A stretch of 25,957 nucleotides of DNA from a virus. Numbering within the stretch: the first letter of the stretch is position 1; each line of letters starts with the position of its first letter. The stretch spans positions 1 to 25,957 of IMG/VR virus record IMGVR_UViG_3300031800_000013, one strand, 5' to 3'. Below are positions 126-20,758 of the stretch, piece by piece. A model generated the notes under the pieces. The model searched no databases. It was not told the origin of the DNA and worked only from the letters and a program-made list of their open reading frames with translations. The position numbers and the translations under genes are program-made.

Positions 126-2348
126 CTAGTTCACCATCCTCGCCGTCTCATACCACTTGTTATCGGCCTTGAGCACCAGGGTCAGCGAGTCAGAGGCTGC
201 CATCGTGAAGTTGGCAGACCCATGCAGGATAATGTGCGTGCCGTCTGTGATGATAAGCCCGTGTTCTGCGAGTACGGTGATGGTCTGGCCCAGAACCCCA
301 TTATCGAAGTCGGTGATGGTGGCTATTCCGCCGGTGATAAATACATTCCCGCCGCTGACTGCCGGGGTTCCCGTGTTGTCGAGGGCCACTATCGCAGCAG
401 GGACAAACGGACCTCTGGCTGCCTTAATGCTGCCATCTTGGTTTACCGAAAAAGCGTCAGCCTTGGTGCCGGAGCCGTTTGGGGTGGTGCTGATAACAAC
501 GTCCGCGCTGGCCTTGTTACCCCCGCCCACCGAGGTTATACGGGCCTCGATGTTGGCAGCATTGAACGAGTCCGCGCTCCCTGTCCCTACTTCAAAGTCA
601 ATGGTGGCAGCGTTCTCCGTTGTAAGTTTCGTGGTCGGAGCGGCTATCGTGCCGTTGAACGAACGCAGGCCAAGCGATAGCGGAGCCCCGTACCCGGTTT
701 TTCTGACCACCCCCGTGGATTCCATCCGAGTTATGGCACCCACCCCGGTGGTCGCGTTCTTGATTAGAAACTCGCGCCCGTAGTTGCCATACAGTTTGTC
801 ATGGGCGAAGACACCGACAGAACTCTCGTACTCAAGAGTGCCTGTTTTTGCTGCGTTGTTCGTAAGGTTCTCGAACTTTATATGTCCGAAGTAAGTCACG
901 TCACCACGGGCGTTAAGCCTCCCACCTTGGTATGTGCGACAGGTCTGCGGGGAGCCGTTCAGCGTTTCGTTATCGCGGGTGTCGAATATCTCAAGGTTGA
1001 TGCAATTCGCGCCAATGTTCAACTCGTAGCCGGTGGAGGAATAGGTGTTTTCCTCGGCATAGACAAAGAGCCTAGATGACCGGAGTTTGCCTAGGTACAC
1101 TTGGTCCGAGGAGCCATCTCTCGCATTCGTTTCGGCGTATATAAACCCATCAAACTGGCGGCCCATAAAGTCAGACGCGAAGTACACCCCCGCCTCCCGG
1201 TTGTACTGCGAATAGATGCCGAGCCTGATTACTGAAGCGTTGTCATTTGTACCCTCAAACCTCAGACCGCTCCTTCCATTATACGAAGCCCAAATGTCAA
1301 GGAGGTCGCTTTTGTTCATGTTGGGGGCCGTGCAGTTGAAATGGAAGCCGTGCCCCTTGTGCTTCGTAGACGTGAACCTGCCGGAAACCCGTATCCGGTT
1401 GTTTGAAAACAGAACCCCATGCGCGGTGCTGCTTGAATTGTCTACGGCAGTATTTGCAGTCTGCGCCGCAGACGCCTCTACGGTCAGGCTTCCCGTGACA
1501 TAGTTGTAGGTCGCGCCACCTGTAAACGTGACACCGACACCATCGAAGTCTTTCAGAATGGTCGCGTTATCACCGTTAAGAGTTTTCCCGCCCGTGACGC
1601 TGATGCCCGAGGTTATCCTGAAGCTACCGGGCGGGAAGTGTATCCTGTTCCCTGCTGCCAGAGCCGCAGCTATGGCTGCCGTGTCATCGGCTACACCATT
1701 ACCCACCGCGCCGAAGTCCTTGACATTAATCACTTCGCCCCAACGGTCAGAGAGTAGCCTCGAGGTCACGCTACCCGTCGCAATCAGTCCCGTGGGCGCT
1801 GGCCCGAGGGCCGTGTTGTTCACCAGGGCATCCACATACGTCTTGGTGGTGGCGTCGGTGGTGGCAGTCGGCGTCCCGAGCGTGCTGATGCGGTTCCCAT
1901 TGGCATCGTACTGCCCTGAGCCATCCGTTGACGAGTCGAGCAGCGACAGGGCACGCTCCGCGAGTTCGCGGGTGCGGATGCCTTGCAGGGTTACCTTGTC
2001 CAGCGCCTCCTCGTGAGTCTCCGCTGGGAACGTACCCCCGCTGATGTAGTCCACTGCCTGCGTCATCGGAGGGTTGCCGTAGATGATGAGTGTCTCGCCG
2101 GTCTGAGGCTCCTGGTCTTCGATGAGGAACGTCACCGTGCCGCCCGCTGCTGCACCCTCGCCGGCCACCGAGTAGTCCGTGTCCAGGGTCTTGGTGGTGT
2201 CCACGCCCGTGGCATCCACGCGGACCAGCACCACGAGGTCGCTGATGGCGAGGAACCTGAACGGCACCGCAAAGACAAGTGTGCCCGGTACGCCTGGGGC
2301 CCCGTTGCCCGCGTAACTCACCCGGTTCTGAGTGCTGGTGATTGTCAT
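126..2348 (-). CDS. Tailspike protein with pectate-lyase-type beta-helix (second of a tandem pair)
   Basis: This 740-residue protein is a probable receptor-binding or polysaccharide-degrading tailspike on the outside of the virion. Residues 1 to about 130 resemble the T7-type tail fibre anchor, with FAVPFRFL, a DYSV strand and FPAETHEEALDK. A linker follows with DGSGQYDANGNRIS and ATGSVTSRLL. The beta-helix starts near residue 206 with VKDFGAVGNGVADDTAAI, the typical opening of the pectate lyase 3 superfamily. The region after about 480 is a fibre-like stretch, and residues from about 653 to the end form a module with ITDFDNGVLGQTITV that also occurs twice in the upstream tailspike. The start is an ATG with AGGAG seven bases before it. 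It lies 25 bases after the upstream tailspike gene. The substrate cannot be predicted, and catalytic residues were not assigned. Confidence 0.88.
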   Translation of the reverse strand: MTITSTQNRVSYAGNGAPGVPGTLVFAVPFRFLAISDLVVLVRVDATGVDTTKTLDTDYSVAGEGAAAGGTVTFLIEDQEPQTGETLIIYGNPPMTQAVDYISGGTFPAETHEEALDKVTLQGIRTRELAERALSLLDSSTDGSGQYDANGNRISTLGTPTATTDATTKTYVDALVNNTALGPAPTGLIATGSVTSRLLSDRWGEVINVKDFGAVGNGVADDTAAIAAALAAGNRIHFPPGSFRITSGISVTGGKTLNGDNATILKDFDGVGVTFTGGATYNYVTGSLTVEASAAQTANTAVDNSSSTAHGVLFSNNRIRVSGRFTSTKHKGHGFHFNCTAPNMNKSDLLDIWASYNGRSGLRFEGTNDNASVIRLGIYSQYNREAGVYFASDFMGRQFDGFIYAETNARDGSSDQVYLGKLRSSRLFVYAEENTYSSTGYELNIGANCINLEIFDTRDNETLNGSPQTCRTYQGGRLNARGDVTYFGHIKFENLTNNAAKTGTLEYESSVGVFAHDKLYGNYGREFLIKNATTGVGAITRMESTGVVRKTGYGAPLSLGLRSFNGTIAAPTTKLTTENAATIDFEVGTGSADSFNAANIEARITSVGGGNKASADVVISTTPNGSGTKADAFSVNQDGSIKAARGPFVPAAIVALDNTGTPAVSGGNVFITGGIATITDFDNGVLGQTITVLAEHGLIITDGTHIILHGSANFTMAASDSLTLVLKADNKWYETARMVN

Positions 2349-2373: not shown

Positions 2374-5352
2374 TCAGGCTATGTCGCTCCTGCTTATCTC
2401 GCTCCACTTGCCCGTCTCCAGCATGGTGAGCGTAATCGTGTCGCCCGTAGTCATCGCGAAGTTGCCAGCCAGTTCCAGGTCGCCACCGTCTGTGATGGTT
2501 ATGCTGGTCTTCGCCTTCACTGTGATGGTCTGGCCCACGACTCCATCGTCGAAGTCCGTGATTGCAGTGGTTCCAGCCGTCAGGAAATACTTGCCATTGA
2601 GGACGGTCGGAGTGGCATCGCCACCCGCGAAGGTGACCACTGGGAAACTCTCTCGCCTGCCAGTCTCGTACCAGTTAGTACCTCCGATATTCGCCAGGGT
2701 CACCGTGTCATCAGCAGCCATGACGAAATCCGCGTCCCCCTGGAGTTGGAGGGTGGCGCTGTCCGTGAGCGTGATAGCACCGTGAGCCCGGACGGTGATA
2801 ATCTGCCCGTCCACGCCATCATCGAAGTCGGTTATGGCGGTGCTGCCTGCCGTGATGAAGGTGCGGCCTGTGGCTACTGTGGGCGTGGCGTCACTGCTTG
2901 CGAAGGTGACGGTGCCCGAGAACTTGTCCTCATGCGAGGGAAACGCTGTCGCAAGCATTCCGCTCTCTGCGTCTAGGTCCATACCCCTGGATGACAAGTA
3001 AAAGCCCGAGAAGGCCGCGCCGACACCGCCCGCATCAAGCCAAAACCTGACGAACGCCGTGCTGGTATTCATAACATAAAACACTCGTCCCGCTTGGTAA
3101 TTCACCAAGGCACCTTGTTGGCCGAATTGCTTTACCCCTGAGCCCAGCCATGTAACGTCACGAATCTCTATGGTCTGCGTCCCCGTCCCGTCGCTGGTCA
3201 GGTTCACCACGGCACCGTCATAATCGTCTAGGAATTGGATGGTGGTAGAGTTCACCACGTTCACCCAGTAGTCAGTGCTAGTAGCCAATCCAGTCGGAAG
3301 AGCGCCGCTAGTGGTGAGATGGACGGGGCCGTCGCTGTCAATGAATTGGTGGGCCACTCCGAAATCCACTTGGTCGGATGCGTGCGTAGTCTCTGCCGAT
3401 GTGAACGTGGGGGATGAGCCAGTACGAACGATTTCCGCACCCGTGGAGTCGTAGCCTTTCAACCTGCCGCGCACGCCCGGATTGTTGAGCGTGGACGTGC
3501 CGCTGCCTGCATCGGCCAAAGCAACCACCGAGCCCCCATAGGCGTCCAAGAACTGAATCTTGTGCTTGTCCACTACGTTCAGCCAGTAGTCCGTAGTGGT
3601 GGCCGTGAGGCCACTGGGTAGTGCTCCGGTGGTTGTTAGCCTGATGGGCCCATAGTTGTCTGGGTATCCGTGCCGTGCCGTGCCGTAGTCTATTTGGTTG
3701 TTTGCGTAATCTGCCTCCGCTGACGTGAAAGTCCCTTCGACCCAGCCCGTCAAAGAGAAGTCGAAAATGGCCTGCCCCTGAGCACAGGGAAGCAGGGGGG
3801 ACTCGTAGAGAACTTGGTAACCCGTGGCGGTGATGTTCTTCGGGTTGATGGTGAGGTTAGACACCCCCGCGATGTTGTACCTCCCCCCGGCAAGCGTCAG
3901 CGATTGGTAATCGAATCCGACTAGCAACTTCTGGGGCGCATACTTGTCGAACGCATGGCGGACGCAGCACATATCTCCATTGTTCGTTACGTCCTCCTGA
4001 GTTGGGGCAGTGTACCGATGCCCGGACATGACGTGGGACCGTTCCACAATGCAGTCCACGGTTCCCCGAGCAAATACAATGCCGAGCACGCCCTCGTTAC
4101 GGATGCGGAGGAAGTAGTTGGCTCTCCCCACTTGGCAGTCAATAAGTGGCGTCGTTACGCCGCCACCGGGGTTATAGGTTCCCTCTAAGGTTCCGCCAAT
4201 GAAGTGGTTGTGGTTATGGCTATACGTTCCATCAACTAGTATGTGGTCGGTTCTGTTGATGTAGAAGGTGTTCTCGTTAATCCACTGTGTCGTACTCCCG
4301 GCGGGACTTGGGTTTGTATTGAGTTCAACCCTGTTGGCGTACTTCAGCCAAAAGGTCGAGTACGCGATGCTCGTCGTTGTCGCGTCATCCGTGTCCGCGT
4401 AGAACTGAATGTAATTGCAGAAGTCTACGGTTATCTGTTGCCCCTTGGCCCCGAGTAACCGAACGTCAGGCGTTGTGGTAGCGCCACCGTTGCGAGTGAC
4501 TTGCCTGATGTTTTGCGGGGGACCGTTGCCGCTTGACGAAGAGTTTCCAAGGATGACTATAATCCCGGTGTGGTATCCCACTATCACCGCAGACGATGCG
4601 TCCAGTTTCTTGTAGCGAAAGTCTACCGTTGCGGTGGTCTTGTAAGTCCCGTCTGGTATGTGCAGCGTTTCGTTGTTTGTGCAGGCAGCTATGGCTGCGT
4701 TGATTGCAGCAGTGTCATCCGTGGCCCCATCCCCAACGGCCCCGAAGTCTTTGACGTTAGTAACGCTGCCCCAGCGGTCAGCCAGTAGCCTCGAGGTCAC
4801 GCTACCCGTCGCAATCAAGCCCGTAGGCGCAGGGCCGAGCGCAGTGTTGTTTACCAGCACATCCGTGTACGTCTTCGTCGCTGCGTCACTGGCAGCAGTC
4901 GGAGCGCCCAAGCTGCTGATGCGGTTCCCGTTCGCGTCATACGCACCAGAGCCATCCGTGTCACTGTTACCGAGGCTGGGGGTGCGGGTGGCAATCTCGC
5001 GGGTCCGCTTCTGCTGAATCGTCAGGCGGTCCAGGGCCTCCTCGTGTGTCTCGGCGGGGAACGTGTCCCCGGCCAGGTAGTCCACCAGTTGCGTCAGCGG
5101 CGGGTCGTTGTAAATCACCACCTTCTGCGTGCTGGGAGGGGCTGTGACGAACGTAACCGTGCCATTGGCATCCCCGGCACCCAGCACCGTGTAGTGCGTG
5201 TAAATCGTCTGCACAACGTCCACGCCGGTCAGGATGGTCCGCAAGACCACCACGAGGTCGGTCTTGACCAGGAACTTGAAGGGGACGGCAAACGGTAAAG
5301 TGGCCCCGTCACCTGTGAACTCCACGCGCGTGGTTTCTGTGGAGATTGTCAT
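2374..5352 (-). CDS. Tailspike protein with beta-helix and two sets of tandem repeats (first of a tandem pair)
   Basis: This 992-residue protein is a paralogue of the next gene. Residues 1 to about 130 are the T7-fibre-like virion anchor (LPFAVPFKFLVKTDL, FPAETHEEALDR). A linker with DGSGAYDANGNRIS follows, and the beta-helix opens near residue 194 with VKDFGAVGDGATDDTAAI. Two tandem copies of a roughly 80-residue module, each starting FTSAE and carrying GPxxLTT(T/S)GALPxGL and a TDYW strand, cover about residues 541 to 728. Two tandem copies of a second module with ITDFDDGV form the C-terminus from about 811. The ATG overlaps the TGA of the giant upstream gene (ATGA) and has GAGGG about seven bases before it. 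The protein probably binds and cleaves capsule or lipopolysaccharide; this is inference from fold and position. The extra repeats make it 252 residues longer than its partner. Confidence 0.88.
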   Translation of the reverse strand: MTISTETTRVEFTGDGATLPFAVPFKFLVKTDLVVVLRTILTGVDVVQTIYTHYTVLGAGDANGTVTFVTAPPSTQKVVIYNDPPLTQLVDYLAGDTFPAETHEEALDRLTIQQKRTREIATRTPSLGNSDTDGSGAYDANGNRISSLGAPTAASDAATKTYTDVLVNNTALGPAPTGLIATGSVTSRLLADRWGSVTNVKDFGAVGDGATDDTAAINAAIAACTNNETLHIPDGTYKTTATVDFRYKKLDASSAVIVGYHTGIIVILGNSSSSGNGPPQNIRQVTRNGGATTTPDVRLLGAKGQQITVDFCNYIQFYADTDDATTTSIAYSTFWLKYANRVELNTNPSPAGSTTQWINENTFYINRTDHILVDGTYSHNHNHFIGGTLEGTYNPGGGVTTPLIDCQVGRANYFLRIRNEGVLGIVFARGTVDCIVERSHVMSGHRYTAPTQEDVTNNGDMCCVRHAFDKYAPQKLLVGFDYQSLTLAGGRYNIAGVSNLTINPKNITATGYQVLYESPLLPCAQGQAIFDFSLTGWVEGTFTSAEADYANNQIDYGTARHGYPDNYGPIRLTTTGALPSGLTATTTDYWLNVVDKHKIQFLDAYGGSVVALADAGSGTSTLNNPGVRGRLKGYDSTGAEIVRTGSSPTFTSAETTHASDQVDFGVAHQFIDSDGPVHLTTSGALPTGLATSTDYWVNVVNSTTIQFLDDYDGAVVNLTSDGTGTQTIEIRDVTWLGSGVKQFGQQGALVNYQAGRVFYVMNTSTAFVRFWLDAGGVGAAFSGFYLSSRGMDLDAESGMLATAFPSHEDKFSGTVTFASSDATPTVATGRTFITAGSTAITDFDDGVDGQIITVRAHGAITLTDSATLQLQGDADFVMAADDTVTLANIGGTNWYETGRRESFPVVTFAGGDATPTVLNGKYFLTAGTTAITDFDDGVVGQTITVKAKTSITITDGGDLELAGNFAMTTGDTITLTMLETGKWSEISRSDIA
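2377..2925 (-). repeat. Two tandem copies of a C-terminal tailspike module
   Basis: The end of the longer tailspike holds two consecutive modules of about 85 to 90 residues, near residues 811 to 896 and 903 to 992. Each runs from VTFAxxDATPTV through T(F/L)xTAG(S/T)TAITDFDDGV, GQxITV and a FxM...DT(I/V)TL strand to a W-E-x-(G/S)-R end. A third copy closes the shorter tailspike from about residue 653. Boundaries are approximate and were set by eye on the protein sequence. The modules are more diverged at DNA level than at key protein positions. Confidence 0.8.
3170..3735 (-). repeat. Two tandem copies of an internal tailspike module
   Basis: Residues about 541 to 622 and 648 to 728 of the longer tailspike align by eye: both start FTSAE, continue with (Q)(I/V)D(Y/F)G, GP(I/V)xLTT(T/S)GALP(S/T)GL, TDYW(L/V)NVV, (K/T)IQFLD and end with a G-(S/T)-GT-(S/Q)-T strand. 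A linker of about 26 residues lies between them. The shorter tailspike lacks this module. It looks like a small beta-sandwich or binding module; function is inference. Confidence 0.75.
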
Positions 5353-8300
5353 CGGTTAGCCCTCACTCTTCGCTTCTCTTCTGGGTTGAGCCCCATGAAG
5401 GGTGCCAGCGGGTTCTTTGTTTCTCCCGTCACAAGGGCCTCGGTGCCCTCGTAGATACGAATCGCTGCGGTCCCGGGCTTCTTGAAAACAATGCCGCCCA
5501 CCTCCACAGCCGCCCGGCCGGCAGAGAAGTCAGCCTCGCCCTGAACCGCCTGCTTGATAAGGTTGGTCGTGGCAGAAAAGAAGCGAGTGCCCGCCGGGCC
5601 GTCGTAATCCATGTACCCGCTCGCGATGCTGCTGAACTCTCGCAATAGCGGGAAGCCGGCCATGATGAACCCCATCGGCTCGAAGGCGATGGTGCGCGCC
5701 ACATACTCGTACCAGGGCTCGTCCTCGTCATAGTCTTGGCGCAGGGCGTCGAACATGAATTTGCTGAGTACCGCTGGGAGAACCCAGAGCAGCAGCATGT
5801 CCACGGCAAGCCTCCCCACTGCTTGCGGCTCATCCTTCAGCGCGGTCGGGATATTGCGCCACCCACCCGCCCGGTTCACCGCCTCTGCCGATAGGTTCTC
5901 CGTGGCATTGAAGAAGCCGAAGAACATGGTGAACATCTTCGTCACCTTTTCCCGCTGGACGGCAGACATATCCTTGATTTGCCCCGTGCCCTGTGTGTCG
6001 AAGACTGCGCGGTCGGCCATCGCCACGGCCTTCTTCTCGTCGCCCGAACCGATTGCCATTTCCTTCTCGTAGGCCCCCAGCCATGTGGGAACGTCCGCCA
6101 CCATCTGCATCTTCACGATGAAGTAGAAATAGGCGTCCATCTCCCCGCTGAAGATGCCGCCCTCCGTGAGTTCGCTCTGGAGTTCGCGCATCTCGCGCTG
6201 CATGTCGCTGCTCTTGGGATTCAGCCGCACCCGCATTCCAGGCGATTTGGACATAATCATGTCCACCGTTGACTGCATGTTCCCTGTCCCGCGTAGCCAG
6301 TTGCGTATGCCCAGGTTCACCCACTTGACCCCCACCCGTTGGTACGAGGCTATGATGCCGAGCGGCTGGAGGGCAGACACCGTTGCACTAAACGCGAGCG
6401 CCGAGACGGCGGTCCCCTTGCGGAGATTGTCCAGAGACCTCTCGAGCATCCCGCTCGCCGGCAGATTCCCCACCGCTATGGCTGTGACCGCATTCAGCAG
6501 TTGGTCATAGACGGGGTAGCCATAGCCCTGGATGATGGAACGCTGGATGGCCGTATCCCTCAGAATCTTGTTCGTGTCAATCAGCCACTCGTTCCACGCG
6601 ATGTCGTGGAGAACCCCGCCGACATGCTGGAAGATGACTGAGAAGTCCAGCGTGAACCTCTGGCCGCTGACCATCGCAGCGCGTTCCTTGAGGAAGCCCG
6701 CCCGCGTTTGGGCTGCGGCGAACGAACCATTACGCGCTTGAATGAGCGCCTCCTGCATCGGGTCCGCTCCGCCACGCTTGGAGCCCTGCCGGCGGTCGCC
6801 CACGATGGGGAAGTATCCGCCCCGCAACGTGGTGCCGTCACTGAACTGGAGCGGCTGTGCTTCCACCTTTTGCGGGGCCACACCCTTGACCCGTTTTTCC
6901 TTGGCGGCAATTTGGGGCCAGAAGCTGTCAATGAAGTCCCACACCTCCTGAACAAACGTCCGGTCGTCCTTGCTCAGGTTGTCCTTGATGGCCTCTATGT
7001 CTGTCTCTGTCCAGCCATACCCGTCCATGAGGCGAGCAAGGTTCCCCTCGTTCCCCATGTTCAGAACGGCCACCAAGTTGCCTACATGCGAAAGCTGAAC
7101 ACCTGGGGCCGCGCCCGGTACCTGCCGCTTCACCACCATCTTCGGCTTGAGGCTTTCTACAGAGCCCAGCGTTGCCGCCGAAAGAGTTTCTCGGACCTGC
7201 TTTTCGACGGACATATACCGCTTGAAAATCTCTGCGAGTTCTGTACCCGCCTCGACGAGCGCCGCGTGCTCGAGTGACCCGGCCTCATCCATCGGCCAAA
7301 TGATGGAGTCGAAGAAGACACCACCCAGAGTCCCATCGAACTCGTTCAGAAAGCTTGCGAACTTCCGATTGAAGGCGAAGTAGTCCTCCACGTTGTGGCG
7401 CTGACGGTCGGCTACATCTGCGCGGCTCTCGAGCGGGATGGGCTTATCGGTTCGCCTGTTCTCTGCCAGTGCGTCCAGCATCACCTCGCGGGTGCGCGCA
7501 AAGTCAGCGTCCCGCTTGGTCGTCAAGAGTTCCAAGTCTGTGCGGGCCAAGTGCTCGATGTTCTTCACCGCATCGACCAACTCACCAAACTGGGCCACCG
7601 TGAGTTCTCTCCACGGCATCCTGAAATCTTCGTTCTGGATATTCTCAGAGATGGCAAAGCCTGGGGCCATTTCCTGATTGGCCTCGGCCTTGGCTTCGGC
7701 CGACGCAATCCACTCGCGGAGCTTCATGCGCCGGTCCATCATGTCGTGCGTCATCGAACGCAGGTCGAACCTGTCCGTGAGCAGACCACCCTTGCCATAG
7801 AGTTGCTGGAAGTAGTCGATGCCCCTCTCGGCGTTCTCGCCAGACCCTGCCTTCGCGATGCGCTCGCGGGCGGGCTTCGCATCCATCCGCTTCAGATAGG
7901 TGCGACCCTTGGCGGCACCCTCTTTCGCCTTCGTGGCCTCTACCACGAGGAAGTGGTTCAGCAGTTGCTTCCGGCCAGCCTCGTGAGCGGCCTGCCAGTC
8001 CTCGGCCTCTACTGCGTCGAGCACGTCGCGGGCTGCCCGCTGCTCTGCAAGCCGGTAGCGGTGGGGGCTCAGGTCGCGAATCCTCTTGCCGGCAACCGCA
8101 GCCTGCGCCGCCCTGCGGGCCAGCCCCTGCGGCTTGTCCTTGGCACCGGCACGGCGGGCGAGGATGCGGCCCTGGCGGATGAGGAACGTCCCCTTGGCGT
8201 CGTTCTCCATTGCCTCAAGGGCTAGCTCAGGCAGGGTGCCGTCTCGCAGGATGTCGCCATAGGCGTCCTTCATCCTGCTCTGGGTTTCTTCGTCAATGGT

Positions 8301-11300
8301 GTCGTTTCGGTTCTTCGTGTTCAAGAGTTCCCGCACCATCGCGTCCCCAGACTCGAAGCCCCACAACTTGGCAACGTGCTCCGGGTCCAGACCCTCCCGC
8401 TGCCACACACCACGCGGGCCCTTCGGCAGCAGGTACTTCTTGGTCACCGGGTCTCTGCCAAGGATGGATAGCCCGAAGGACTCCACGAGGGCGTCCCGGT
8501 CCAGGCGATGCGTTTCGGCTTCGGCCTCGTCCTGACCCAAGCGCACCCCGTACTGGAGCCAATGCCGCAGCGAGATGATGGGCTGGGCGTTGATTTCCGC
8601 CTCTACCTCGGCCCGCATCTTCTCGTAGTTGTCTTTCCAGTCAGCCGTGGCCTCGCGCTGGAGTTCCGCGAGCAGCTTCTTCGTGGTCTGCTGCTCTGCC
8701 TGGAGGTGCATCCGCTCGTGGGCCTGCCGGTACGCTTCGTATTCAGCCTCGGTCATGCCAGCAGCTTCCGCACTCTCGAAGGCGGGAAGCATCCTCTGCT
8801 GCTCGCCGGCCAGGGCAATCTGCTCCTCGGTCGCCAGCATTCGGTCGAAGACCTCACGAATCTCCGGGGTCAGTTCCACATCCAACCCGCGCAGGGTGCG
8901 GTACACCTGGAGGAGCCAACGCTTGAACCGCTCGAAGGCGGCCTGGAGTTCTACGCTGGGGGCCTTGCCCTCGCGCAGGTACGCCTCGAAGGAACGGGCC
9001 CATACCTCGTGCTGCTCCGTGGTCAGGGCCTCGATGGACTCCGCACCCAGGTAGTCGAGGGCGGCCTGCATATCGGCCAGCAGTTGCGGGCTCGCGCCCT
9101 CGGTCTGGGCATCCTGCATCATCATCACGAAGAAGAGGTGGCCGCTCTCGTGGAGGGCCGTGCTCAGGTTCTTCGACTTCGTGAACCGCATGAGGATGTT
9201 GTTCAGTTCCGGGTCATAGGTGAGTGAACCCCGGACCCCATCGCGGGAAGGCTGGAATAGCGGCAGCCCCTGCTCCTCCACTGCCCGCTTCATCTCGGGG
9301 GTGAGCTTGAGGGTGTGGACTTGCTCGCTCGCCCTCTCGTCAATGAGTTTTTCGCTAAGCGCAGCCCTCGCCTCCCCCTCGGTGTCGAAGTGCAGCCCTC
9401 TTGACGAGTAGTCTTCGCTCTTTAGCATCCACTTGCCAGAAGTTGTCTGCGATGGGGGGGTTATGTGCCATCCGGCTTTCTTCCCAACATCAACGCCGCC
9501 CGCCTCCACCTTCGCACCGTACTTCTTGCCCAGCTTGTTCGCGGCCTTGACCAGTTTCGTATCGTAAACGTCTGTGAAGCCCTTGCCGCCAATCGTGAGG
9601 TTGTCGCCCTCGACCGTGCCGCTGGGACCACCTTCGAGTATCTGCCTCGCGATGTCCTTGCCCACTACGTCTTCCAGGGGAGTGTCTACGGGGATGTCTG
9701 CGGTGGCACTCTTGACTAGGCCCGTCTCCGGGTCAACGTGCATACCCACCGCCACGTTGCCGTCCTTGTAGGTAGCCACTGCTATCTCACGCGGAGAAAG
9801 CATCGGTTTACCGGGCCACCCGAGAGCCCGCTCGCCCGCCGGGTCTGTCGGTATCTCCCACTGGATACTGTCCACGGTCTGCCGCAGCGCGTCTTCGTAG
9901 CGGGCTACTTGAACGTGCCCAGGCGTCCAGGCAACCGAGTCATACCCCTCGCGGATGGCCTTGGCTATCATGCGCTTCAGGGCCATCTCATGGCTGGTGG
10001 TCTTGAACGGGCGGTCGGGGGCACCTTTGACCTTCGCATTCAGTTCATTGATGCGCTCAAGCCCCTGCTGGTAAACCTCGCTTGTTTCCGTGGTGTTGTA
10101 GTGGCTTCCATCGGGAGCGGTACGCACATTGCTAAAATCAAGAACGTCCTTAAGGCTCGCGAGTTCTTCAGCCTCTGCCTCGGAGAGACTCTCCGCGTAA
10201 CCTTCCTTCCGCCCAGCCTTCGCCCAGTCATCCTGTATCTCCTCGATGAACAGGACTTTCTCGCCGTTGGGACCAACGCGGTCATTGTGGCGAACGTGGA
10301 CTAGGACATTGGGGGCGACTTCGCCGTAGTGGCCGCCTTCAAAGTTACGAGTCTTCTGGCCGGATTCCTCTATGGCGCGTTGCCAATGCTCGCTCGCTGG
10401 GGTGTTCGTGCGAATCACATCGTCAACGTCATACCCATTAGCATCTGCAAAGGCTTTAGCCCTAAGCTCTGTCGGCAACGAACGCATTGGCAGCGTTATC
10501 AGCGTCTCCTGATAGTTCTCGCCACCGGGGAGGGTGTAGGATTCGTGTTGGACAGCCCCCTCAAACCCACCGCGCTGCGATGCGGTTTGCGTGGCTATGT
10601 GCGCGCGTATGGCATCCCAACCGTCTTGCTCTGTCTGGTTGTTCATATCCGCGTCAACATCCAGGAACCGCCCACCCGGACCTTGCACTGAGACGTTACC
10701 GGCATCCGGGTCAACATTGATTACAAACTGGTCCCCGGAGTTCCATTCTCCGACTTCTAGGTCATACCCGCCCGTTTCAATTTGCTCTTCGGTCTGTGTC
10801 CTTCCAATCTCTCTTAGGTCTGGCTCCGGCAACTCCTCACCACCCAGCACAACCTCTTCGACTTTGATGAGCTTGATGCTCTCCATCATCTGGTCGAGGT
10901 CAACCTTGGCCTCGGGGTCCAGTGCAGACAGGTACTCCTCCACGCCTGACCAGATAACTTCGTCCTTCTTGACGCTCTTCTTCTGGAGCATCTTGCGGAC
11001 TTGAGCCACGGTCATCTTCCGCTGCTTGGACTCGCGGAGTGCGCGGCCCAGCGTAGAGTGGAAAGCTCCCGCTAGAGGGCGTTCGTTCTCAAGCTCCACC
11101 GCCTGCTCGAGGGTGGTGGGGGCGAAGCGCGACTCAAGCTCCCCGATAATCTCCTCGTTCGTCATCTGCTCCAGGTCGAAACCCAACGTCTCCAGAACCG
11201 AAGCAAGTTGCGCGACCTCGGGCGTGGGGGCCTCGGGTGCCTCGCGGAGGGTGTTCAGCAAGGTGCCAATATCGACACGCGCCAGGGCCTCCTCGAGAGT

Positions 11301-13184
11301 CGGCGGGGCCACTGGACCCTCTGGACCCTCCACCTCCATCCCTTCCAGTTGCTCAAAGGCACGCTCCCCGGCCACACCCTCGGCACGAGTCTCGGCCTGG
11401 GCCCGGAGTATCTGGGCCACGAACTGCGCGTCCTCGGGACGCATCGCACCCGTGCGAACCGCCTGCTCGATGAAACTCTGCTCGACCCGCTCGCCAGGGG
11501 TCAGTTCTGCCGCGCCCTCTTCCGTGCCGGCCAGGGCATCCATTTCCGCCTGGAGGGCTGCCTCGTCCTCGGCCTCCGTGGCTTCGACCTCTGCCATGTT
11601 GCGAGCACCGTGGGCCTGACCCACGAGCGGAGCCAGAGTTTCATGGTGCTCTTTCAGATGGGCCAAGTAATCGGCGCGGGGAATGACCACCTCTGTCCCG
11701 GTCGCCAGTGCCTCGTGGATTTGGTCGAGCACCTCGGGCATCGCCTGGAAAGCCTCGGCTATGGCCTCGTCCTCCTGAAAGAGTTCCACCAAGTCCTCTA
11801 CCTTGATGTAGAGGTTGGGGTCTTCCCCGCTCTGCTCGAATATCTGCTGGAGGAACTGCCGTACTAGGTCCGGGTCAGCGTCCTTCATTGGCCCCGAGCG
11901 CAGTGCTTCGGCCTGGTCGCTCAGGTGCTCCGCTTTCGCTCGCGCCCGCATATTGCGCGCTACAGCCTCGCCAGCGAAGACTAAAGGAGTGGCGACTGTC
12001 GTCACGCCACCCCCACCGAGGGCCCCCTCCGTCGCCGCGTGCTTCAGCCTCTCCACGTTCTCAGGTGTGAAGAACTCAGGGTTCTCGTTCGTATAGTTTT
12101 CCTTGAACCAGTTCCCCACCAAAATCAGAACCGAGTCCTGTATGAACTCCTCGAGGCCCTCGGAACCGGCTGTCGCGGCGATTGCCCCCACCCGCTTGCC
12201 AAGGGCAGCTAGGTGCGGGTGCATCGCCCGAGAGGTCAGAATCTTCTTCGGGGTCATGCCCGCGATAGCTCCAACCAGCCGCTGCGCGCCCGAGTATTTG
12301 AAGAGGAACCGAGTCGCCCAAAACTCCACGCCACCGTTGACCAAGCCCACCAGAACCGAAGCCCCCAGGACAACCTCATGGGGGATGGGCTCGCGCACCA
12401 TGAACGGGATGTCGGGGGGGCGGCTATTTATCTCCCGCGCCTCTTCCGTGAGTTCGCCGTAAGCTTCCCCGAAGCTAAGCTTGAAACTGGCCCACCCGAG
12501 CCCCACTTTCGCCCCGCCTGCCGCAAAGGCTAGAGCACCCGGCCCGCTACCTATCCCCGCCAATCCCGCACCAGCCGCACCCACGCCCGCATACAGGCCC
12601 ATCATCGGCAAGGGCCCGGACAGTTGCTCCACCGCCGGCCCCCAAATATGCGCCCCCGTGTAGCCCGGGGCTTCGGGGACCACGGTGCGGTTGCGTTGCA
12701 ACTCCTCGAAAGCAATCTGCGCCGCCGGGTCACCGAGCAGTCCACCCCTCACGGCGAGGTCACTCAACGTCGTGGTTTCTTGCCCTCGTATTGCCCTCCC
12801 TATGAACGCATCGAACCCTCCGGCCATAGTCTTGGCGCTAGCCGGGTCTTGCATCACCAGAGTCCCCAGTGGGCCATTCAGAACATCCGCCCATGCGGGG
12901 ATGCTTTCCACCTGCACGGGCCCCAGTTGCTGGTAGGCATCCTGGGCGCGCACCTTGTCCATGTTGCGCTCTACCGTGTCGAAGGGTACGTCCGTGCTCT
13001 TAGCGAGTCGCGTGGCCTCGGCCCGCATCGGTGCCTGCTCGCGGGCCCGTAGCTCCGCAAGGTTCCGCACCTGCGCCTTGCGCTGCTTCTCTGCCTGCTC
13101 TTCCGCCTTGGCCCGCTCGCCCAGCGCCAGGATGTCTTCAGTCGTGTAGAGGGGGGAACTCATGGAGCTTCGGGCCACCTCCAC
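5349..13184 (-). CDS. Giant internal virion / large polyvalent protein with HEXXH metallopeptidase motif
   Basis: About 2611 residues, in the position of T7 gp16, so probably an ejected internal virion protein. The N-terminus is charged and helical. Gly/Ala-rich hydrophobic stretches lie near residues 191 to 235, 268 to 295 and 382 to 408. GTEVVIPRADYLAHL follows, then blocks typical of phage large polyvalent proteins: LPGGENYQETLITLP, NVLVHVRHNDRVGPNGEK, FIEEIQDDWAKAGRKEGY and TTSHEMALKRMIAKA. The motif HESGH at about 1345 to 1349, preceded by LSTAL, matches the zinc metallopeptidase of such proteins, with E1400 (SFEAY) a candidate third ligand. The remainder is mostly helical with hydrophobic segments near 2258 to 2285 and 2455 to 2480. 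No lytic transglycosylase motif was recognised. The GTG at 13184 is the longest start; an ATG at 13163 overlapping the upstream TGA is an equal alternative, giving 2604 residues. Protease activity is inferred from the motif only. Confidence 0.85.
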   Translation of the reverse strand: MEVARSSMSSPLYTTEDILALGERAKAEEQAEKQRKAQVRNLAELRAREQAPMRAEATRLAKSTDVPFDTVERNMDKVRAQDAYQQLGPVQVESIPAWADVLNGPLGTLVMQDPASAKTMAGGFDAFIGRAIRGQETTTLSDLAVRGGLLGDPAAQIAFEELQRNRTVVPEAPGYTGAHIWGPAVEQLSGPLPMMGLYAGVGAAGAGLAGIGSGPGALAFAAGGAKVGLGWASFKLSFGEAYGELTEEAREINSRPPDIPFMVREPIPHEVVLGASVLVGLVNGGVEFWATRFLFKYSGAQRLVGAIAGMTPKKILTSRAMHPHLAALGKRVGAIAATAGSEGLEEFIQDSVLILVGNWFKENYTNENPEFFTPENVERLKHAATEGALGGGGVTTVATPLVFAGEAVARNMRARAKAEHLSDQAEALRSGPMKDADPDLVRQFLQQIFEQSGEDPNLYIKVEDLVELFQEDEAIAEAFQAMPEVLDQIHEALATGTEVVIPRADYLAHLKEHHETLAPLVGQAHGARNMAEVEATEAEDEAALQAEMDALAGTEEGAAELTPGERVEQSFIEQAVRTGAMRPEDAQFVAQILRAQAETRAEGVAGERAFEQLEGMEVEGPEGPVAPPTLEEALARVDIGTLLNTLREAPEAPTPEVAQLASVLETLGFDLEQMTNEEIIGELESRFAPTTLEQAVELENERPLAGAFHSTLGRALRESKQRKMTVAQVRKMLQKKSVKKDEVIWSGVEEYLSALDPEAKVDLDQMMESIKLIKVEEVVLGGEELPEPDLREIGRTQTEEQIETGGYDLEVGEWNSGDQFVINVDPDAGNVSVQGPGGRFLDVDADMNNQTEQDGWDAIRAHIATQTASQRGGFEGAVQHESYTLPGGENYQETLITLPMRSLPTELRAKAFADANGYDVDDVIRTNTPASEHWQRAIEESGQKTRNFEGGHYGEVAPNVLVHVRHNDRVGPNGEKVLFIEEIQDDWAKAGRKEGYAESLSEAEAEELASLKDVLDFSNVRTAPDGSHYNTTETSEVYQQGLERINELNAKVKGAPDRPFKTTSHEMALKRMIAKAIREGYDSVAWTPGHVQVARYEDALRQTVDSIQWEIPTDPAGERALGWPGKPMLSPREIAVATYKDGNVAVGMHVDPETGLVKSATADIPVDTPLEDVVGKDIARQILEGGPSGTVEGDNLTIGGKGFTDVYDTKLVKAANKLGKKYGAKVEAGGVDVGKKAGWHITPPSQTTSGKWMLKSEDYSSRGLHFDTEGEARAALSEKLIDERASEQVHTLKLTPEMKRAVEEQGLPLFQPSRDGVRGSLTYDPELNNILMRFTKSKNLSTALHESGHLFFVMMMQDAQTEGASPQLLADMQAALDYLGAESIEALTTEQHEVWARSFEAYLREGKAPSVELQAAFERFKRWLLQVYRTLRGLDVELTPEIREVFDRMLATEEQIALAGEQQRMLPAFESAEAAGMTEAEYEAYRQAHERMHLQAEQQTTKKLLAELQREATADWKDNYEKMRAEVEAEINAQPIISLRHWLQYGVRLGQDEAEAETHRLDRDALVESFGLSILGRDPVTKKYLLPKGPRGVWQREGLDPEHVAKLWGFESGDAMVRELLNTKNRNDTIDEETQSRMKDAYGDILRDGTLPELALEAMENDAKGTFLIRQGRILARRAGAKDKPQGLARRAAQAAVAGKRIRDLSPHRYRLAEQRAARDVLDAVEAEDWQAAHEAGRKQLLNHFLVVEATKAKEGAAKGRTYLKRMDAKPARERIAKAGSGENAERGIDYFQQLYGKGGLLTDRFDLRSMTHDMMDRRMKLREWIASAEAKAEANQEMAPGFAISENIQNEDFRMPWRELTVAQFGELVDAVKNIEHLARTDLELLTTKRDADFARTREVMLDALAENRRTDKPIPLESRADVADRQRHNVEDYFAFNRKFASFLNEFDGTLGGVFFDSIIWPMDEAGSLEHAALVEAGTELAEIFKRYMSVEKQVRETLSAATLGSVESLKPKMVVKRQVPGAAPGVQLSHVGNLVAVLNMGNEGNLARLMDGYGWTETDIEAIKDNLSKDDRTFVQEVWDFIDSFWPQIAAKEKRVKGVAPQKVEAQPLQFSDGTTLRGGYFPIVGDRRQGSKRGGADPMQEALIQARNGSFAAAQTRAGFLKERAAMVSGQRFTLDFSVIFQHVGGVLHDIAWNEWLIDTNKILRDTAIQRSIIQGYGYPVYDQLLNAVTAIAVGNLPASGMLERSLDNLRKGTAVSALAFSATVSALQPLGIIASYQRVGVKWVNLGIRNWLRGTGNMQSTVDMIMSKSPGMRVRLNPKSSDMQREMRELQSELTEGGIFSGEMDAYFYFIVKMQMVADVPTWLGAYEKEMAIGSGDEKKAVAMADRAVFDTQGTGQIKDMSAVQREKVTKMFTMFFGFFNATENLSAEAVNRAGGWRNIPTALKDEPQAVGRLAVDMLLLWVLPAVLSKFMFDALRQDYDEDEPWYEYVARTIAFEPMGFIMAGFPLLREFSSIASGYMDYDGPAGTRFFSATTNLIKQAVQGEADFSAGRAAVEVGGIVFKKPGTAAIRIYEGTEALVTGETKNPLAPFMGLNPEEKRRVRANR

Positions 13185-18848: not shown

Positions 18849-19721
18849 CTAGGCCACACGGTCCGCAACGATTTTGACAACCTTGCCCGCCTCGAGGCGC
18901 GTTGCCCCAATGGTGGTCTTGCAATAGACCTGCGTGGCGTAGGACTTGTCCTCACGCTCGCTTATCTTCGTCGTGATGTCGTTCCACACCGTCAGGTGCA
19001 TCCCGCTCTTCGCCCACATCGGGCAATCGGTAGAGGCCGTGACCGAAGTCAACCGCTCCGTGGTGATGAAGTTGATGCCCAGGAATGCACGCACCCGGCC
19101 ATCCACCAGCACCTTCGTGCTGTTGCTGTCGATGGTCTTGATGTCGGCCATGTTGAGCAAGTCTTCATGCTGCTCTGCGGTGATTGCCATGTAGATGGTG
19201 TCGTTGTCGAGGTCAACCTCGTTCGCCATGAGGATGCGCTTGCCCTCGAGCAGTTGCCCGATGGTCAGCACGCCGCCGCCAACGATTGCCACCTGACCCA
19301 CCGTGGAACCCAATTCGGTTCCCGTACCGTTCTCGCCCGTCGAGGAATCCGCGAAGAACGCGCCGATTATCTCGTCGTCGATGGCACGACCCATCGCATA
19401 GGCCCCGTTCACCGCATAGGGCGACTGGGGATTGATGAGCATCCGAACCTTGTCCTGGTCGTCGATGAGGTCGGCCCACTCGTAATCCACCGGAAACGTC
19501 CACCGCGCGTTGTGCGGGGTGTCGATTAGCGGCGTGTCCGCGTGCCGGGTCGTTCGCTTGACGGCATTGACTGCACCCACCTGCTCGACAACCTTGGCTG
19601 CCTTGCCGGTTGCGGTGCCGTTCGTGACTGAATCTCGGAACTTGCTGCCCCTCTGCTGCAACAGGTGAGCCACATTCGTGGCGTACTGCTGCACAAAGGC
19701 AGTCGATACTTGGTCTGACAT
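18849..19721 (-). CDS. Major capsid protein
   Basis: The 290-residue product starts MSDQVSTAFVQQYATNV and carries DTPLIDTPHNARWTF, EWADLIDDQDKVRML, SPYAVNGAYAMGRAIDDEI and GEGKRILMANEV-like segments (LLEGKRILMANEVDLDND). These are familiar blocks of a podophage capsid protein family, and the gene follows the scaffold gene as expected. The C-terminus has GINFITTERLTSV and a MWAKSGMHLTVWNDITTKI strand. It is shorter than T7 gp10A (about 345 residues) but in range for HK97-fold shells; the fold itself is inference. The ATG has GAGGA about eight bases before it. No slippery frameshift extension is evident: only a few codons are open beyond the TAG in the same frame. The 197-base leader with hairpin repeats could control its high expression. 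Confidence 0.92.
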   Translation of the reverse strand: MSDQVSTAFVQQYATNVAHLLQQRGSKFRDSVTNGTATGKAAKVVEQVGAVNAVKRTTRHADTPLIDTPHNARWTFPVDYEWADLIDDQDKVRMLINPQSPYAVNGAYAMGRAIDDEIIGAFFADSSTGENGTGTELGSTVGQVAIVGGGVLTIGQLLEGKRILMANEVDLDNDTIYMAITAEQHEDLLNMADIKTIDSNSTKVLVDGRVRAFLGINFITTERLTSVTASTDCPMWAKSGMHLTVWNDITTKISEREDKSYATQVYCKTTIGATRLEAGKVVKIVADRVA

Positions 19722-19741
19722 TGGGATAGTCCTCGTTTAAT

Positions 19742-19755
19742 GGCGCAACTGCGCC
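19742..19755. other. Short GC palindrome upstream of the capsid gene
   Basis: GGCGCAACTGCGCC is a perfect inverted repeat (six-base arms, two-base centre), about 21 bases before the capsid ATG. In RNA it would form a five-pair stem with a four-base loop. On the plus strand it is followed by TTT only. It could be a protein-binding operator-like site or an RNA hairpin close to the ribosome binding site; nothing decides between these. Confidence 0.4.
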
Positions 19756-19759
19756 TTTC

Positions 19760-19890
19760 GAGGCTTATCCGCCCGTTGGCGGGGCCTTCATTGAAAACGG
19801 CTTCCAAGGCTTGCCGGGATGCCACACCCGGGCCGATGTCATTGGCTGGAAGGCTTGCCCGGTTGCCATACCGGGGCCGTCGTTCAATGG
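19760..19890 (-). repeat. Three degenerate direct repeats, each containing a hairpin
   Basis: Between scaffold and capsid genes lie three units spaced about 45 bases apart: 19760 to 19793, 19806 to 19845 and 19850 to 19890. On the plus strand each reads AGGCTT, then a GC hairpin, then GGGCC or GGGGCC, then a TTG or ATGG end. Units two and three match at most positions; the first is more diverged. The stems are CCGCC/GGCGG (19769 to 19782), CCGGG/CCCGG (19814 to 19831) and CCCGGT/ACCGGG (19858 to 19875). Stem sequences differ while pairing is kept, which suggests selection on structure. The 197-base spacer holds no convincing gene. Confidence 0.7.
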
Positions 19891-19918
19891 TGTAACTCTG
19901 ATTCCTACCTCTCCCGTA

Positions 19919-20758
19919 TCACGCCTTTTCGCTACTCGCAACCTCGGGGTGCGCCAAAGAGTGCAGGCGGGTCATTCTTGCCACAGCCTCGGGACGCCCG
20001 TCCAGGTACTGCTCCATGAACTTCTCATCCAGGGTCAGGTCGCCAATCTTCGCCTTCGCGGCTGCCGGGGTCATGCCAAACGTGGTCCCGGCACCCGTGT
20101 CCTGCTCCCGGTCATTCGGCATCGTGTGTTCCCCCAGTCCCCGGCCAATCTCAGCCGATAGCTCCAGCAGTCCCCGCAGACCCAGGGCGCTCTCCAGTTT
20201 GTCCATCGTCCCATCGTCCAGACTGAACCGCTGCCGGAACCGGGTGCCGGCGGCGATGTTCTCCTCCCACGCCGTCCCCCATTCCTTCCGTAGCGCCTGC
20301 TCGTCGGAACTGGCCTGCTCTGCTCGCTGAGTCTCGAACTCCTGGCCGAGGTCAGCCAGTCGAACGTTGTACTTCTCGTAGATGCTCTGTGCCTGCTTCT
20401 TCGACAGACCCGCCTCGTGGGCCCAGTTCGCCAGGTCAGGGGTCAGGTCGATGCCGCCCTCGGGCACCTCGGGGCCCTTGAACTCGTAGCCACTGGCCTC
20501 CTCGGGCCTGCCAAGCCGGTTGTAGACGGCACCCCACTCCTCGGCGTCCGCATCCTCTTTCGGGAGGTGCAGAATCTGGTCCGCAGGTGCGCCCATCGAC
20601 TTCTCGAGGTTCCGGTACGAGTCCAGCATCTGCTCCGCACCCGTCCAGCCCTTGTTCTCGACGTACCCCTGAGCATCCTCGCCCAGTCCATCGGTCCATG
20701 ACGTGGACGCCACCTCCACTTCGGGGGCGCTCTCAGGTGTCGCTGTCTCCTCGGCCAT
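19919..20758 (-). CDS. Capsid scaffolding protein
   Basis: A 279-residue acidic, helical protein starting MAEETATPESAPEVEVA. It has GAEQMLDSYRNLEKSMGAP, DQILHLPKEDADAEEW and VYNRLGRPEEASGYEF, which are typical of podophage scaffold (capsid assembly) proteins that lie directly before the capsid gene. A coiled region with KKQAQSIYEKYNVRLADL follows, and the C-terminus contains LTLDEKFMEQYLDGRPEA, the likely capsid-contacting end. The ATG at 20758 was chosen because AGGAG lies four bases before it and because residues upstream of it lack scaffold character; an in-frame start at 20890 would overlap the small Cys/His gene completely. The scaffold guides shell assembly and leaves before DNA fills the head (family knowledge). 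Confidence 0.9.
   Translation of the reverse strand: MAEETATPESAPEVEVASTSWTDGLGEDAQGYVENKGWTGAEQMLDSYRNLEKSMGAPADQILHLPKEDADAEEWGAVYNRLGRPEEASGYEFKGPEVPEGGIDLTPDLANWAHEAGLSKKQAQSIYEKYNVRLADLGQEFETQRAEQASSDEQALRKEWGTAWEENIAAGTRFRQRFSLDDGTMDKLESALGLRGLLELSAEIGRGLGEHTMPNDREQDTGAGTTFGMTPAAAKAKIGDLTLDEKFMEQYLDGRPEAVARMTRLHSLAHPEVASSEKA

Follow-up and report, generated by a model that had tools for sequence, protein, structure and literature searches.

The spacer ahead of the major capsid gene in the window (the whole 25,957-nt stretch of podovirus DNA analyzed here) is probably, at a probability of about 0.62, a leader-type RNA element that controls capsid translation, which would be ON when a small hairpin unit is formed and OFF by default. 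Judged from its sequence, the element looks like an undescribed on/off switch for phage shell production. A tailed phage has to produce capsid subunits by the hundred and match their amount to that of scaffold and portal. If the reading is true, a widespread RNA switch where the scaffold and capsid genes meet would offer a general explanation of how this balance is set, as well as a family new to Rfam, and the capsid leaders of other phages are worth examining.

The spacer belongs to a minus-strand morphogenesis operon encoding terminase, a Head-tail_con portal, a scaffold-like protein, the capsid and tail proteins. The same strand also carries a 2611-codon ORF amid tail and internal virion genes (window 5349-13184) and a tail spike-like protein with a pectate-lyase type domain (PF12708; window 126-2348). 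With the scaffold-like ORF ending at 19919 and the capsid ATG starting at 19721, the gap (19722-19918) is the 197 nt already described by the sequence-only reading. A 25-27 nt hairpin unit with the consensus GG-N-C-[stem]-R-Y-A-A-N-CC occurs three times on its mRNA strand. The unit has an outer stem, P1 (GGC/GCC), and an inner stem, P2; the internal loop between them has C in its 5' strand and RYAA in its 3' strand. The features of the locus, in the order of transcription, are the following:

19919-20758, minus strand: scaffold-like gene upstream (phrog_3742; weak phrog_458 'protease'), with a stop codon 40 nt upstream of unit 1
19852-19878, minus strand: unit copy 1, GGCCCCGGUAUGGCAACCGGGCAAGCC, with P1 GGC/GCC, P2 CCGGU/ACCGG, a 3' bulge YAA and UGGC in the loop (covariance model 33.2 bits, E 7.8e-7)
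19808-19834, minus strand: unit copy 2, GGCCCGGGUGUGGCAUCCCGGCAAGCC (covariance model 30.5 bits, E 4.3e-6)
19762-19786, minus strand: unit copy 3, proximal to the ribosome binding site (RBS), GGCCCCGCCAACGGGCGGAUAAGCC (covariance model 26.3 bits, E 6.4e-5)
19759-19770, minus strand: anti-Shine-Dalgarno (anti-SD) strand GGAUAAGCCUCG, comprising the 3' half of unit 3 and three flanking nt, which pairs with 19724-19735 in the minimum-energy fold
19742-19755, minus strand: spacer hairpin GGCGCA..UGCGCC, which closes the loop of the predicted OFF helix
19724-19735, minus strand: capsid Shine-Dalgarno (SD) region CGAGGACUAUCC, with the SD core GAGG at 19731-19734, complementary to the 3' half of unit 3
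18849-19721, minus strand: major capsid protein gene (PF19821 Phage_capsid_2; phrog_3437), the proposed regulated gene

The covariance model was trained on 21 units from diverse phages, window copies 1 and 2 included, and finds the three spacer units as the only significant matches in the 26 kb (next best E 0.92). A degenerate 27-nt pattern that covers copies 1 and 2 had no match in 100 shuffles. The three direct repeats seen earlier are present, with starts 44 and 48 nt apart, but the conserved core is that of the short unit and not the 35-41 nt first proposed. The fourth palindrome noted near the capsid RBS is the GGCGCA/UGCGCC hairpin, which forms the loop of the RBS-proximal fold; its counterpart has another spelling (GACGCAC/GUGCGUC) in some relatives and is missing in others. 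Folding stability is mildly above that of shuffled sequences for the whole 226-nt spacer (z -1.7) and clearly above it for the RBS-proximal 71 nt (z -4.06).

The proposal had been staked on finding conserved pairing or a conserved repeat at this place in related phages, and it survived their examination. The unit stands directly upstream of a PF19821-type capsid gene in 181 fetched loci, representing 115 distinct leaders, and pattern scans of IMG/VR gave 268 units in these 181 loci, at most 400 nt upstream of the capsid ORF. Retrieval by capsid yielded 80 loci, with three or four units in close relatives (capsids 69-83% identical) and one in distant relatives. One copy is usual, copy 3 of the window being its counterpart in most relatives, and three or four are found in the clade of the window; one relative carries four in tandem (L004:1823-1990). 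Unit-bearing capsids range down to ~25% identity, the value for a gut phage. Capsid-alignment retrieval in bacterial and archaeal genomes located the unit in contigs assigned to Ensifer adhaerens ST2, Achromobacter HZ34, Nitrosovibrio Nv4 and Caulobacter, where P1 shows the variants GGU, GGA and GGG/CCC.

The association with the capsid gene is tight. The pattern GGCCCCTCC..GAGGAYAAGCC precedes a capsid ORF in all but three of 52 contigs, two of which end at the sequence edge and one of which (L104) is a real exception. The leftover pattern matches are mostly lone matches to a looser pattern in contigs lacking a capsid gene (chance level), or lie at contig ends. When 24 phage records were scanned whole, the strong model matches sat at the capsid leader. 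Three secondary matches, from one phage record and two bacterial genomes, were inspected and all fall within coding sequence, and the remaining matches in bacterial genomes have scores in the chance range. Among the best bacterial matches inspected, none was convincing as a host genomic copy that would point to a host binder. Related pelagiphages, vibriophages, Alteromonas phage ZP6 and Yersinia phage YeP5 lack the unit, and the model found none in those scanned whole. No cultured phage with the unit was seen in INPHARED, where it appeared in two records from uncultured sources.

Across homologues the unit is a conserved structured RNA with compensatory changes in P2, in agreement with the earlier observation that stem sequences differ between copies while pairing is retained. 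P2 occurs with 31 distinct arm pairs and covaries strongly (0.398 vs. 0.108 ± 0.020 in shuffled sequences), G-U pairs included, and its cells are paired in 97.7% of cases (83.7 ± 1.4 shuffled; at most 43% when the structure is slid). All statistics across phages given here come from related representatives, so that p-values assuming independence are too small and significance is overstated. When units were chosen by their flanks only, pair 3 of P2 was formed in 88% and pair 4 in 90%, against 60% and 42% with the arms shuffled. P1 is nearly invariant, so that few variants bear on its pairing; its third pair is C-G, U.G or A.G, or G-C in three distant leaders read by eye (GGG/CCC; L273, L280, L282). 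In one clade a small ORF reads through the unit in two different frames (SDKP and RTS), which places the constraint at the level of RNA; conservation through a coding peptide (DKP) is ruled out, since the frame differs between phages. As a separate observation, the three-copy clade (window 19742-19890; L005, L007, L018) keeps the UGGC loops of copies 1 and 2 while the stems change, and the linker sequence UUCCAGCCA is likewise retained. The RNA could form a UGGC/GCCA pseudoknot there, and a CUUCCA/UGGAAG helix around copy 2, but both are invariant, so that covariation is uninformative.

The second line of evidence is the complementarity between unit and SD, which in the window involves the 3' half of unit 3. 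In other clades it is the 5' arm of the single unit, together with its loop, that complements the SD, as in CCUCCUACGA with UCGUAGGAGG (L061) and CCUCGUAG with CUACGAGG (L208). This complementarity is phage-specific: over 70 representatives the unit region matches its own SD with a score of 19.85, against 14.30 (sd 0.34, maximum 15.22) in 200 swaps, a statistic that is not biased by the retrieval of loci with DNA patterns, which does bias the unit sequence. The best SD partner within 194 nt lies inside the last unit plus 10 nt in 50 of 69 leaders (12.5 expected), and the OFF helix overlaps the unit stems in 48 of the 70 representatives; the complementarity is weak in 14 and misses the unit stems in 6. 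In the clade of the window the OFF helix is conserved (84% paired, at most 48% when slid) and shows no compensatory change, because the unit fixes one of its strands. A general upstream strand complementary to the unit (GGGGC/GGGCC) was considered and rejected, being no more frequent than in shuffled sequences (17/61 vs. 15.8).

Folding predictions suggest how the two pairings compete. Predicted SD accessibility is 0.097 in the real leaders, 0.286 ± 0.015 in chimeras of unit and SD, and 0.376 with the unit deleted. Imposing the unit, in a comparison made without a loop-matched control, raises the prediction from 0.10 to 0.36, with an increase in 91 of 114 leaders and a decrease in 5. Unit folding and SD sequestration would then be mutually exclusive in most representatives, and the element may be placed, on these models, among the SD-sequestering translational switches, with two exclusive folds of which one hides the SD. 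When the unit unfolds, the anti-SD strand would capture the SD and turn capsid translation OFF; when the unit forms, the SD would be released and the capsid gene turned ON, which is the direction we infer. The comparative data support the earlier suggestion of mRNA-level control of capsid expression and indicate one mechanism for it, the competition between unit and SD sequestration; an array of repeats is not essential, as most relatives have one copy.

What would bring about the ON state? The predicted OFF fold is on average ~6 kcal/mol more stable than the unit fold. With OFF favored by energy alone, either something has to stabilize the unit, or its effect is short-lived and due to its being transcribed first. 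The conserved internal loop is dispensable for the OFF fold, which argues that the unit is recognized by something. Each candidate is tentative. Our first guess is a phage protein that recognizes the C.R/YAA internal loop, and within this class the scaffold protein is favored over the capsid protein. Taken one by one, a purely kinetic switch with no ligand is slightly more probable than the scaffold protein; a host RNA-binding or ribosomal protein is rather less likely, the capsid protein less likely still, and a small molecule is the most doubtful. For a metabolite aptamer 25 nt would be small, which also counts against the switch reading as a whole. A phage assembly protein is the simplest assumption, since the unit tracks the capsid lineage and not the host group, and since the scaffold gene lies immediately upstream. 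Given a protein trigger, the two extra upstream copies in the clade of the window would be extra binding sites. In its fullest form, which we consider doubtful, the proposal would be of an undescribed RNA family, widespread in short-tailed phages with PF19821 capsids, acting as a sensor that permits capsid translation in the presence of an assembly partner such as the scaffold, with the anti-SD nucleotides themselves forming the sensing hairpin and tandem copies adding cooperativity. The product of the small ORF was rejected as a universal ligand, the ORF not being found in the window.

The low SD accessibility of real leaders would also follow from static sequestration relieved by translational coupling, in which ribosomes coming from the upstream gene open the SD with no ligand and no recognized unit. 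This alternative is unlikely, although the clade with the small ORF offers a setting for it: the ORF crosses the unit and the anti-SD strand and stops 18-38 nt before the capsid ATG, a ribosome terminating there would open the SD, and coupling probably adds to the switch in these phages. In the window, however, the scaffold stop lies ~133 nt ahead of unit 3, in addition to its distance from unit 1, which is too far for melting by a terminating ribosome, and the upstream ORF ends ahead of the unit in ~40 other leaders too. Coupling also leaves the invariant GG..C..YAA..CC with its covarying P2 unexplained.

The recognition-like internal loop, the presence of up to four copies and the gene for an abundant assembly protein downstream would suit a repressor operator, bound by capsid or scaffold protein to block capsid translation as the coat protein does in ssRNA phages. 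We regard this as still less probable, for unit formation is predicted to open the SD, not to close it, in the large majority of leaders given above, and the last unit is mostly 26-71 nt upstream of the start and does not cover it. Processing of the spacer by RNase III or RNase E, setting the level of capsid mRNA, is improbable. T7 is known to have RNase III sites between its late genes, and the OFF fold of type-B leaders is a long interrupted hairpin; that duplex includes the SD, however, so that cleavage would harm the ribosome site, the short hairpin with its invariant C/RYAA loop corresponds to no RNase III signature known to us, and the phage-specific SD complementarity is left unexplained. 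A DNA-level, packaging or termination signal, suggested by inverted repeats within an intergenic gap, is highly improbable, given that the element is strand-specific and accompanies the capsid gene, that its covariation includes G-U pairs, that its pairing partner is the SD, and that a scan of 19500-20200 found no terminator-like or promoter-like site. The same scan gave no alternative U-run terminator, leaving attenuation by termination, one of the roles raised by the sequence-only reading, unsupported; packaging, another of them, is unlikely for an element that is tied to the capsid leader and has the SD as pairing partner, with nothing comparable elsewhere in the scanned phage records.

The switch proposed here differs from the systems it most resembles. 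Rfam 15 at its gathering threshold has no match in the window or in 19 related loci (102.7 kb), and a relaxed search of the spacer returned chance-level matches only. The best of these, c4-a1b1 (RF03163; targets of C4 antisense RNA), was rejected at 16.1 bits and E 0.14, against a gathering score of 46.7 and with no match in relatives; its likeness lies in a CGGGU-UGGCA-CCCG-like hairpin in unit copy 2. Translational riboswitches and protein-responsive leaders share the two exclusive folds, one hiding the SD of the downstream gene, but here the 25-27 nt recognition unit itself holds the anti-SD, and the element lies inside a late phage operon in one to four copies, only before capsid genes. 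The coat-protein operator hairpins of the ssRNA phages MS2 and Qbeta are likewise small bulged hairpins near a phage structural gene, whereas the present unit belongs to a tailed dsDNA phage, precedes the capsid gene, leaves the start codon uncovered and is predicted to activate. The P22 scaffolding protein controls its own synthesis post-transcriptionally, a case of RNA-level control among podovirus scaffold and capsid genes; here, in contrast, the element lies between scaffold and capsid and its predicted target is the capsid. The glutamine riboswitch of the marine phage Melnitz, which controls ssrA (PMC9004378), is also a cis-regulatory RNA on a marine phage, but is unrelated, the present element having no Rfam match and the capsid, not ssrA, as proposed target. 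No description of the unit was found in the open-access literature; a 2017 survey of 224 candidate RNAs was covered via Rfam only.

Two further observations concern the same junction. Proteins of one family, 60-85 aa long (EIRLECLKLA...VIAMAREYLAWV, followed by a basic tail that is sometimes RGRPPK-like), are encoded between scaffold and capsid at L038:2719-2973, L045:2686-2895, L118:5682-5894 (minus strand) and ~60 other loci, but not in the window. The family matches no Pfam family and no PHROG convincingly, and its AlphaFold model is a two-helix hairpin with a disordered tail; where it occurs, it may bind RNA or DNA and be a partner of the element. The pelagiphages and vibriophages with related capsids, which lack the unit, nevertheless have a spacer before the capsid gene, and the pelagiphage leaders (L096, L097, L098) seem to share an AUGCC-stem-GAGAAC hairpin there, possibly an analogous element.
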